Shown: in pieces, positions 1-35,708 of the stretch
Position numbering within the stretch: position 1 is the stretch's first letter
How the letters are laid out: every line of letters starts with the position of its first letter
NCBI RefSeq assembly: GCF_013376415.1
Contig: NZ_WYET01000013.1
Coordinates: 1-64,000 of the forward strand
Length of the DNA stretch: 64,000 nt
Source: Flagellimonas chongwuensis
Lineage (GTDB): Bacteria; Bacteroidota; Bacteroidia; Flavobacteriales; Flavobacteriaceae
Direction: 5' to 3'
Notes under the pieces: model-generated
Told to the model about the DNA's origin: nothing
The model's database searches: none
What the model saw: only the letters and a program-made list of their open reading frames with translations
Made by a program: the position numbers and the translations under genes

Positions 1-87
1 GTATCGAACAAACTGTTGAAACAGGCATTTGCCATTGCAAAATCCGGAATACCTTACGATGAGAACCATATATCGAGATTGGCTTAA
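1..87 (+). mobile_element. C-terminal end of a probable IS110-type transposase (partial)
   Basis: Frame 1 is open from the window edge to a TAA at 85-87 and encodes 28 residues ending NKLLKQAFAIAKSG-IPYDENHISRLA. The 'NKLLKQ.FAI.KSG.PYD' ending resembles the C-terminus of IS110/IS1111-type (DEDD) transposases as I know them from Bacteroidota. The rest of the element lies outside the window. A hairpin directly over and after the stop (84-91 pairing with 97-104, loop 92-96) could terminate it. The assignment rests on a short stretch and could be wrong. Confidence 0.45.
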
Positions 88-104
88 AAAGACTTGCTTT
101 TTAA
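84..104 (+). terminator. Small hairpin after the transposase stop
   Basis: TTAAAAAG at 84-91 pairs perfectly with CTTTTTAA at 97-104 around a 5-nt loop. It is AT-rich and has no long T tract, so it is a weak terminator candidate; it may instead be part of the insertion-sequence end. Confidence 0.3.
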
Positions 105-115
105 CTCAGTTCTTT

Positions 116-125
116 GTTGTGCCAC
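116..125 (-). repeat. Left half-site of an integron-like cassette boundary
   Basis: GTTGTGCCAC here is an exact inverted match to GTGGCACAAC at 819-828, so the pair brackets the gene at 131-796. In an integron, each cassette begins with bases complementary to the start of its own attC site, and this pair shows that arrangement on the minus strand. The rest of an attC site, which should lie at lower coordinates, is replaced by the transposase fragment. The core departs from the GTTRRRY consensus at one position. Confidence 0.5.
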
Positions 126-130
126 GTTTA

Positions 131-796
131 TTATTTAAATCTATTCATCAATTTAGACCAAAACCCTTGTGCATTATTTTCATTCTCTATATCAAGATTA
201 ATAATTTCAATTTCTCCTTGCTTTTTTTCTTGCTCTGTTCTAAAATCATCATACTCATAATTCCCCAACTCATCAACGGTATTTTTTATTATAATTTTCC
301 TTTTTTCAAACCATTTGAGTGCATTTTTTGCATCAATAATAATATTGGGGTAGAGTTTATCTAATAGTTCCTTTTGTTCTTTATCTGAAATTTCATTCCA
401 ATTTTTTTGATAATTTCCTGCTGGTGGACAAGAAACCAACAAACCATAATTCAGTCCAAGCTTTTGCAAAAAAATATATCCTTTACAATATAAATCATAC
501 GTCATTTCTATCGATTCAGCACATTTTTCATCCCTCTGAATTATTGATTCTAAGATTTCTTGTATTTTTTTAATTTCAAATTTCCCATAGTCAACATATT
601 GTTCAATTAATTTAGTTAAATCATTGAGTGCATACTTTGATTTATAGTTTAGTGAAATTAAATCAAGATATAAATCTTCAGGTAGGTTTTGTTCAAGTTC
701 TTTAGAATTATACACCCAAGTTTCAAAATCTTGAATGCTCATTTGATGTTTTAAAACTTGATAAAATCTTAATTCTATTTTATCATCAATATTCAT
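131..796 (-). CDS. Hypothetical protein, cassette-borne, 221 aa
   Basis: I do not recognise the family. The product is a soluble, strongly charged, mostly helical protein with no signal peptide or membrane segment. It has a conserved-looking centre around residues 100-125 (YDLYCKGYIFLQKLG, then a CPPAGNYQKNW segment) and an acidic/Lys-rich tail. The DNA is markedly more AT-rich than the housekeeping genes of the window. The gene fills a unit bounded by a 10-bp inverted match (116-125 and 819-828), with its start 24 nt inside the attC-like site and its stop close to the opposite end. That is the normal compact packing of an integron cassette gene. Start ATG at 796. The overall look recalls small immunity or stress proteins, but nothing specific supports that. 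Confidence 0.7.
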   Translation of the reverse strand: MNIDDKIELRFYQVLKHQMSIQDFETWVYNSKELEQNLPEDLYLDLISLNYKSKYALNDLTKLIEQYVDYGKFEIKKIQEILESIIQRDEKCAESIEMTYDLYCKGYIFLQKLGLNYGLLVSCPPAGNYQKNWNEISDKEQKELLDKLYPNIIIDAKNALKWFEKRKIIIKNTVDELGNYEYDDFRTEQEKKQGEIEIINLDIENENNAQGFWSKLMNRFK

Positions 797-818
797 TTAT
801 GCATTTCGATTTTCAAAT

Positions 819-955
819 GTGGCACAACGTGTTTGTATAAGAATAGTTGCGGGTTTGCGAGCGAGTTTTTCCGCAGGAAAATCAGATGAAGCAAACCCGC
901 AACTACCTTTGTTTTAGCCTAAAACCGCAATTATTTTTATACTGTGTTGTACGCA
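819..955 (-). other. attC-like recombination site between two cassettes
   Basis: A 137-nt imperfect dyad. Its outer arms are GTGGCACAAC (819-828) and GTTGTACGCA (946-955). Next come TGTATAA-like stretches on both sides, and then a perfect 15-bp inner stem, 844-858 with 891-905 (TAGTTGCGGGTTTGC and its complement), around a 32-nt spacer. The outer ends differ from each other, and each matches the far end of its own flanking cassette: 116-125 for one and 1377-1386 for the other. That is the layout of attC sites in arrays. It lies in the 300-nt gene-free gap 797-1095. No integrase gene is in the window. Confidence 0.6.
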
Positions 956-963
956 GGCTTTTT

Positions 964-1335
964 TTATAATTGCTCCACTAGTTTCCTAGAAGTAACCGTA
1001 TCATATATAATTTTTAGTTTACTAATCTTGTTTTGATTATCGAATTCAATAATGTCTACTACATCAAATTCCACTTTTTGATTATTCTTTAAAGTTCATT
1101 TATAGGTGAAGTAAATAGCTAAATCATTTGATTCATTATCTTCAAAAATTCCTTTTAAATGAAGTTCAGAATTTGAAGTATCGTTATTTAATTCACGATA
1201 AAATTCATCTGCTTTTTTTATTCCGTATAGTGGTGAATCAACCATTCCATTTTGATTGAATAAAGCAACTACTTGTCCAACATTTCCATTTTCAAGGTGG
1301 CTTATATATTGCCTTGCTATTTCCTTTTTATTCAT
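964..1335 (-). pseudogene. SnoaL/NTF2-like protein interrupted by an in-frame TGA
   Basis: From ATG 1335 the frame encodes 79 residues (MNKKEIARQYISHLENG start, ASP-rich middle, ending AIYFTYK), then a TGA at 1096-1098. The same frame stays open for 43 more codons (TLKNNQKVEFDVVDI..., ending RKLVEQL) to TAA at 964-966. Read through, this gives a normal 123-residue NTF2-like fold protein. In family members the stop position often holds Trp ('TW.L..G..V.FDVVDIF'), so a TGG to TGA change is the simplest explanation. The unit is bounded by the inverted match 946-955/1377-1386, so this is a second cassette. A sequencing error is the alternative. Confidence 0.65.
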
Positions 1336-1376
1336 TATTTTATCAATTTTTAAATTTCAGAGTTCGTTTCTCGGCT

Positions 1377-1412
1377 TGCGTACAACTTACTTATATACGG
1401 AACTTTGTTGAA
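1377..1412 (-). repeat. Right half-site of the cassette array
   Basis: TGCGTACAAC at 1377-1386 is an exact inverted match to 946-955; extended to 13 positions, 12 match. Read on the minus strand it is followed upstream by TATATAAGTAAGTTGT, which resembles the TTATACAAACACGTTGT half of the 819-955 site. A complementary GTTGAAC lies at 1407-1413. The full site is not obvious, so it may be a degenerate attC or the junction with the original insertion point. Confidence 0.4.
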
Positions 1413-1652
1413 CATATACCCTTAATTTGGGTTGCTATGCCCAAGTTTTATAAATTATTGCTCAGTATATTTTAGTGTTTTTTTTGTGTAACATGCAATA
1501 TAAACATTATTCTTGTTTACAAATGGATTGCCGATACTATTGATTTTGATTCATTTAGTTGTAGGCGTAATTAAGCTACAAACGTTTTTGATATATTGTT
1601 GTTTATCAGTTTCACTTTTCAATAAAAGGGGTTTAAAACATTGAACTAAAGA

Positions 1653-34869: not shown

Positions 34870-35409
34870 ATGCGAATCATTTCAGGAAAATATAAAGGCA
34901 AAAGACTAACGGCGCCTAAAAAGTTGCCCGTGCGCCCCACTACCGATATGGCCAAAGAAGCCCTGTTCAACATTTTGAACAACCGCTTCTATTTTGACGA
35001 ACTAAAAGTGTTGGACCTGTTTTCCGGTACCGGCAACATAAGCTATGAATTTGCATCACGTGGAGCCGAAAACATTACCGCCGTTGATGGCTTTCCCGGA
35101 TGTATCCGATACATTTCCAAGACAGCGCAGGAACTTGAATTTTCCATTGACCCCGTTAAATCGGATGTATTTAAATTTTTGGAGGGCTCATCCCAAAAGT
35201 TTGACCTAATTTTTGCCGACCCACCTTACGATTTTAGCACAGAGCAGTTTTTAAAAATTGCCGACTTGGTTTTTGATAAAGAGCTTTTATTGGAAGATGG
35301 CGTACTTATTATTGAGCATTCGGACCAAACCAATCTTTCCGAGCATCATCAATTTTCGGAACAACGCAAATACGGCGGAAGTATATTCAGTTTTTTTGAA
35401 ATAGAATAA
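34870..35409 (+). CDS. rsmD: 16S rRNA (guanine966-N2)-methyltransferase
   Basis: A 179-aa SAM-dependent methyltransferase that modifies G966 of 16S rRNA. The N-terminus is MRIISGKYKGKRL with RPTTDMAKEALFNIL. The SAM motif is LDLFSGTGNISYEF and the catalytic motif is DPPYDF (near residue 119). It starts at the base after the stop of the DUF3822 gene. Its stop lies 1 nt from the 3' end of the RNase P RNA encoded on the other strand. Confidence 0.94.
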   Translation: MRIISGKYKGKRLTAPKKLPVRPTTDMAKEALFNILNNRFYFDELKVLDLFSGTGNISYEFASRGAENITAVDGFPGCIRYISKTAQELEFSIDPVKSDVFKFLEGSSQKFDLIFADPPYDFSTEQFLKIADLVFDKELLLEDGVLIIEHSDQTNLSEHHQFSEQRKYGGSIFSFFEIE

Positions 35410-35708
35410 AAGCAGGCCATAAGCCGGATTCTGTATACCCTTATCATTTATCTAGACAAATGGTTGCCCAAGTGTTCTAACCGCCTACCCTCCAACTCGA
35501 GCGTGCAGCCCTCGAACATTGGTTTACATGACGTTTCACCGCATAGAGTTTACCTGATTTCACTACAGCCGAACTGTACTTGCTTTCTGTTGCACTTGTC
35601 CTCGCCTTTCGGCGGACGGGCGTTACCCGCTATGCCGCACTATGGTGTCCGGACTTTCCTCTTCAAGTTTTGTTACCCAAACTTGCAGCGATAAGGTGGC
35701 CTGCTGAG
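35408..35708 (-). ncRNA. rnpB: RNase P RNA, bacterial type A
   Basis: The minus strand carries the conserved GAGGAAAGTCCGGAC core near the 5' end (about 35645-35660), the ACAGAAA segment, the GGTAAACTC and GGTGAAACG stretches, and the 3' GAATCCGGCTTAT segment. The terminal helix P1 is AGCAGGCC (35705-35698) with GGCCTGCT (35418-35411). The product is the catalytic RNA that matures tRNA 5' ends. The ends are set by P1 and may be off by a few nucleotides. It accounts for the whole gap between rsmD and dnaX. Confidence 0.95.

Follow-up and report, generated by a model that had tools for sequence, protein, structure and literature searches.

The described systems closest to the locus reported here are the IntI integrons, such as the class 1 and class 3 integrons and the Vibrio superintegron. 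The locus and its relatives share with them an integrase gene beside an attI site at which cassettes join (decayed in the locus itself), long one-way arrays, cassette starts complementary to the end of their own attC, a preference for the folded bottom strand of that site, and an integrase that has IntI4 among its nearest solved relatives. The insert in the IntI protein is held to be essential for integrons. In classical attC sites recombination is confined to the bottom strand, and strand choice is governed by the first extrahelical base (PMC2727003). Integron surveys pick out integrases by the IntI-specific domain (PMC2426708, PMC9668308). For the Bacteroidetes, the IntegronFinder 2.0 paper mentions only In0 elements (integrases without cassettes), from its authors' previous survey, and a single complete integron, in Salinibacter (PMC9024848). 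The platforms described here differ from IntI integrons in lacking the I2/patch III insert, in having a core of the form GTTR.... with an A at position 11 instead of GTTRRRY, and, in the layout seen at our locus, in an integrase that reads toward attI. The last arrangement, with the integrase transcribed in the same direction as the cassettes, is shared with Treponema chromosomal integrons; these differ in being, according to PMC3607928, intI integrons. A catalytic domain without the insert is likewise found in Xer recombinases (XerA, XerC, XerD and XerH), XerA being the best fold match, but the array-type enzymes carry about 95 additional residues as an N-terminal domain and are located at cassette arrays. 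We did not find a description of such a system in the open-access literature, with subscription papers and preprints lying outside the scope of the search.

The stretch analysed here (the window) comprises the first 64,000 nucleotides of a contig (C8) of the 3.77-Mb genome of Flagellimonas chongwuensis, which is assembled in 13 contigs; window position 1 is the first base of C8. Judged by its sequence, the segment 116-1386 holds, on the minus strand, an integron-type array of two cassettes. An integron-cassette-like array of a flavobacterial type had been proposed in the initial annotation, and this proposal is supported by further copies, by an adjacent integrase and attI, and by turnover of cassettes in relatives. 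The two core pairs on which it was founded are exact: GTTGTGCCAC (116-125) is inverted at 819-828, within an extended repeat (116-129/815-828) complementary at 13 of 14 positions, and GTTGTACGCA (946-955) is inverted at 1377-1386. Equally real is the 137-nt dyad between the genes (819-955), whose perfect 15-bp stem is formed by 844-858 and 891-905; folded as single-stranded DNA it has a z-score of -3.58, with 1 of 200 shuffles folding equally well. On the minus strand this attC-like dyad is bounded by the R'' of cassette 2 (946-955) and by an R' that is the start of cassette 1 (819-828). The R'' end of cassette 1's own attC, GTGGCACAAC read on the minus strand, lies at 115-125 and is exactly complementary to the start of that cassette (819-828); comparison of the junction indicates that the remainder of that attC, beyond 115-125, was displaced by an insertion sequence (IS). 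The gene of cassette 1 (131-796, minus strand) is an open reading frame for a 221-residue protein of unknown function with only sub-threshold Pfam matches. It has a homologue in one other of 249 family genomes, in a different genus (36% identical), with an attC-model match 84 nt downstream; a pairing scan around that homologue recovered no core pair, only the model match. The gene of cassette 2 (964-1335, minus strand) is interrupted at codon 80 by an in-frame stop and is weakly SnoaL-like (SnoaL_2 at an E-value of 0.28, below the Pfam cut-off). The start core of this cassette, GTTGTACGCA read on the minus strand (1377-1386), is the exact complement of 946-955 and is joined to a remnant of attI.

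Alignment with the attI regions of contig C1 of the same genome and of a relative (L067) delineates a decayed attI region at 1377-1510 (minus strand), whose end is GTATATAAGTAAGTT on that strand, and, at about 1515-1552 (minus strand), a remnant of the last codons of an integrase gene (..IGNPF..). The whole stretch 1377-1552 attains a local score of 113 against the C1/L067 attI and integrase tail, the maximum in 500 shuffles being 44, and we therefore interpret the window array as a platform that has been deprived of nearly all its integrase gene. Contig C1, in turn, carries the genome's intact platform: from its start it displays an IS end, GTTGTGCACT, a pair of genes, AGTGCACAAC, a sizeable dyad, GTTGTAGCAC, more genes, GTGCTACAAC, an attI-like stretch and an intact tyrosine recombinase of 371 residues (C1:1833-2948, minus strand) beside this second array. 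The remark that no integrase is in view thus holds for the window, save for the tail remnant at about 1515-1552, but not for the genome. Nor is the locus simply a lone attC cluster, as had been suggested, given the decayed attI and integrase tail adjoining it and the intact platform on C1.

The left side of the window array is interrupted by an IS110-family element, of which the 3' end, consisting of the transposase C-terminus and then the non-coding end, occupies positions 1-114 (plus strand), with the contig beginning inside the IS. The same IS end of about 120 nt starts contig C1, and contigs C3 and C10 begin with the other end of the element followed by the remainder of an attC. The relative L060 has the element in full, inserted in an attC between ...ACAACA and ATGGCTAT..., and its transposase is assigned to the IS110 family by matches to PF01548 (DEDD_Tnp_IS110, 73.4 bits) and PF02371 (Transposase_20, 76.9 bits). 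In all, at least five places (window 1-114, L008 1-114, the starts of L156 and L157, and L060) have the element at an identical position within attC. Such insertions account for the four contig breaks at attC sites: the element has jumped into the sites and thereby broken the assembly there. IS1111-attC elements are IS110-family elements, and those seen here resemble them in being inserted in attC sites and differ in that the host attC is of a new type, no sequence comparison with IS1111 having been made. Short repeated dyads (GTTTAGCGG.. and GTTGGGACGG..) also occur in or next to attC sites of L058, L059 and L066, and are perhaps a small element that targets such sites.

Among 71 genomes of the genus (Muricauda/Allomuricauda/Flagellimonas), 34 have a match to the recombinase at E<=1e-40, and 13 of the matches are full length with 64-77% identity. 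In these genus relatives the stretch 3' of the recombinase stop codon is conserved up to an end in ..ATATAAACAAGTT, beyond which the sequence varies by genome. Across the integrase gene and attI up to the core, L073, L074 and L053 agree at 1240/1240 or 1238/1240 nt, and their sequences part 4-6 nt inside the core. A wider list of relatives (the best 80 of at least 552 named ones) includes 67 of the co-directional type, of which 45 have at least 1000 nt of downstream sequence. The attI motif was detected in 39 of these 45, and in 33 of the 45 the adjoining core recurs in inverted orientation at a distance of 150-3500 nt downstream, the remaining 12 lacking such a match; reversed or complemented cores used as a control gave an inverted match in 2/82. 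It should be noted that the attI pattern was fixed after the data had been seen, a tighter version having recovered 14/58 before it was widened. There is no more than a hint of a Flavobacterium-type promoter following the integrase gene: TAnnTTTG occurs there in 14/55 cases, compared with 4.9 (at most 12) in shuffled sequence, and variants of it picked afterwards in 32/55, compared with 6.4. In the nearest relative, Allomuricauda abyssi (L060/L095), a loss of some 12 nt from attI leaves a cassette joined at GTTCAG, and the integrase frame is in two pieces.

Much longer arrays are seen in two one-contig genomes (G183 and G138), which together have 178 matches to our attC model in 160 kb, about 89 each, 177 of them on the expected strand. 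Each array packs its roughly 89 sites within 65-70 kb and is headed by an array-type recombinase (39% and 44% identity), which lies some 100 nt ahead of the initial cassette. Forward chains on the plus strand take in 140 cassettes (69 in G183 and 71 in G138), versus 0-2 in Markov-shuffled copies. For the pairing of cassette ends, sites of these two arrays were chosen by motif, ignoring pairing. The principle invoked in the initial annotation, that a cassette start is complementary to its own end and not to its neighbour's, was borne out in 45 of 90 cases over 9 nt, the counts within the same site and against the next but one being 2 and 1 of 90, respectively. At positions 10-12, on which there was no selection, pairing with the cassette's own end reaches only 1.46 of 3 versus 1.03. 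The core does depart from GTTRRRY, as had been observed for the window: this form is met in 7 of 63 distinct starts of the two arrays and in 2 of 36 attI-proximal starts, and the core can be written GTTR...., with position 11 an A in all 63 distinct starts. The longest reading frame runs along the integrase direction in 96 of 117 cassettes and opposite to it in 6, while 15 have none of 60 residues. For 115 of 117 sites in excised form, the bottom strand is predicted to fold the better, by a mean of 3.5 kcal/mol; with the cores removed it remains the better strand in 93 sites versus 2, the corresponding figures for random stretches being 34 versus 61. Since sites of the same array are related, these strand counts are not independent. 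Single-base bulges are seen in 31 of the 117 predicted bottom-strand folds, without a canonical attC as yardstick.

Our attC alignment was built from 16 of 25 sites and contains 18 consensus stem pairs, 12 of which show two-sided changes. The stem-loop layout R''-L''...L'-R' with an unpaired central spacer is present, and an asymmetric spacer bulge is common in the predicted folds. The covariance model derived from it (R1) matches the window dyad at 822-952 (minus strand) with 102.8 bits, the site itself being in the training set, and hits five places in the genome at E<=1e-4, among which the window and training sites match by construction. The model matches at least 70 of the 71 genus genomes, and at least 221 of 249 family genomes in at least 208 of 235 genera. 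Its E-values are rough, and its only negatives are 28 family genomes (mostly small among the 20 listed), 13 kb of E. coli and other stretches. As the recombinase was recovered at E<=1e-40 in only 34 of the 71 genus genomes, many sites are without a known integrase. Simpler searches were less telling: a loose ACAAC..GTTGT pattern has 6 matches in the window versus 1.9 expected and, because of its gap limits, missed the window site itself, and the core pair alone, used as a search pattern on the genome, gave 3 forward and 1 reverse matches against 4 and 1 in the control, that is, no excess. An Rfam search of the window at gathering thresholds returned only RNase P, a bacterial class A RNA at 35405-35707 on the minus strand. 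A single decayed attC-like site (73 bits) lies near position 204,256 of contig C1 (L158 5257-5376), distant from any array seen.

A tyrosine integrase with the integron insert, which the initial annotation had recommended looking for, was not found; in its place is an array-type enzyme without the insert. The catalytic R, H, R, H and Y are retained in all 36 array-type enzymes compared, and the IntI-specific additional domain (I2) is absent from every one of them. Between two compared positions of the catalytic core they have 59-60 residues, as against 101 in IntI1 and IntI3, and E. coli XerC and XerD have 63 and 67 in that interval. With the integron integrase model TIGR02249 (cut-off 265 bits), the enzyme of our genome scores 199.6 bits and four others 194.9-210.6, versus 508.6 for IntI1 and 444.8 for IntI3; with XerA_Arch it scores 212.2 bits (cut-off 220). 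Its predicted structure (mean pLDDT 84.3, pTM 0.53) is nearest XerA (Z 23.8 and 20.7), with the integron integrase IntI4 (2A3V) at Z 20.1, and these fold matches span only model residues 94-354, leaving the N-terminal domain out. This domain, an alpha/beta unit in the co-directional enzymes (L067 residues 1-82 and relatives), has no known role; DUF5710 was matched in 2 of 31 members at loose Pfam E-values, the best being 0.014. A quick tree, subject to long-branch warnings, places the array-type enzymes in one group apart from IntI1 and IntI3 (support 84 with 59 rows, 97 with 56 rows). However, three relatives of 579-593 residues (L143, L145 and L146) fall near IntI in the tree (support 82), so that a single origin is not settled; they too are without the insert, and one has the array signature.

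We consider it highly probable that these arrays are cassette platforms run by an insert-less recombinase and integron-like in their working, although no recombination, excised circle or transcript has been observed, and we are just as confident that the window locus is the remnant of an integron-type gene-capture platform. In the proposed mechanism, a tyrosine recombinase without the IntI insert would insert circular gene cassettes at attI beside its own gene and shuffle them through the attC-like dyads, recombination being inferred to occur at the GTT core. That the folded single strand, specifically the bottom strand of attC, is the substrate is likewise an inference, which we favour with some reservation. 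Strand choice would then come from the asymmetric central spacer and the pattern of wobbles and mismatches in place of extrahelical bases read by I2, and a promoter after the integrase gene might drive the first cassettes. The insert that defines IntI integrons was tested for and is absent, and we have therefore not filed the system among them: with 36 of 36 enzymes lacking the insert and the core rarely GTTRRRY, it appears integron-like in working and yet fails the IntI definition. In its broadest form, to which we incline without regarding it as secure, the interpretation is of a Bacteroidota integron lineage in which a folded single-stranded attC undergoes recombination although the I2 helix is absent, as are, for the most part, the extrahelical bases which that helix reads; both halves of what is thought to be the defining lock would thus be missing at once. 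This lineage would comprise a co-directional and a divergent layout, super-arrays with some 89 sites, platforms that are plasmid-borne or mobile across families, and at least one antibiotic-resistance cassette. If the arrays do work, the accepted definition has caused a major gene-capture system of a whole phylum to be missed, and the need for I2 in cassette recombination becomes directly testable.

The most serious competitor to the single-strand mechanism is that the cassettes are real but that their sites recombine as double strands in the manner of Xer, the dyad merely representing inverted binding arms. The absence of I2, a fold closer to XerA than to IntI4 and the scarcity of single-base bulges in the bottom-strand folds are all compatible with this; against it, a double-strand reaction needs neither long stems with two-sided covariation nor a strand bias of 115 to 2. 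We regard this alternative as unlikely, though well worth keeping in mind. That the sites are ordinary attC moved by a canonical IntI encoded elsewhere, that is, a CALIN of classical integrons, would account for the general architecture and the bottom-strand bias. It is contradicted by the rarity of GTTRRRY starts, by an attI that adjoins an insert-less recombinase, by the gap between the 195-211 bits of the tested array-type enzymes and the scores of IntI1 and IntI3, and by the lack of any TIGR02249 match above cut-off in the 249 family genomes (for which search the control genomes were uninformative), and we consider it very improbable. The notion that the dyads are REP- or MITE-like repeats or terminators between ordinary genes, with core matches arising by chance, draws on the many dispersed model matches, some in genomes without a detected recombinase, but own-end pairing, anchoring at attI, exchange of cassettes at the core and regular arrays of cassette-sized units leave it barely credible.

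Besides the co-directional enzymes, the best 80 relatives include 13 shorter, XerC-like proteins of 275-283 residues, none of which (0/13) has an array downstream. Their use as an array-free outgroup on this basis was ruled out by attC-model matches lying upstream in 8 of the 13; all 13 of these matches read away from the gene, as in classical integrons. Three such divergent platforms, from Sphingobacterium (L136), Empedobacter (L137) and Parapedobacter (L138), agree at 278-279 of 279 integrase residues and at 162/163 to 169/169 bases before the core, and then continue into different cassettes; L133 and L139 behave likewise (274/279 residues and 171/171 bases identical). From sequence comparison alone, the platform of L136, L137 and L138 has moved between families. 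In Sphingobacterium sp. CZ-2 its first cassette is aadS (L136 4919-5782, minus strand; AadS at 518.6 bits, cut-off 450), which is bracketed by its own core pair and followed by a clear dyad, indicating that resistance genes can also sit in such arrays. A co-directional integrase with its array is found on a plasmid of a trout Chryseobacterium (L147, NZ_CP041688.1), where the cassettes are interspersed with an IS110 and a group II intron.
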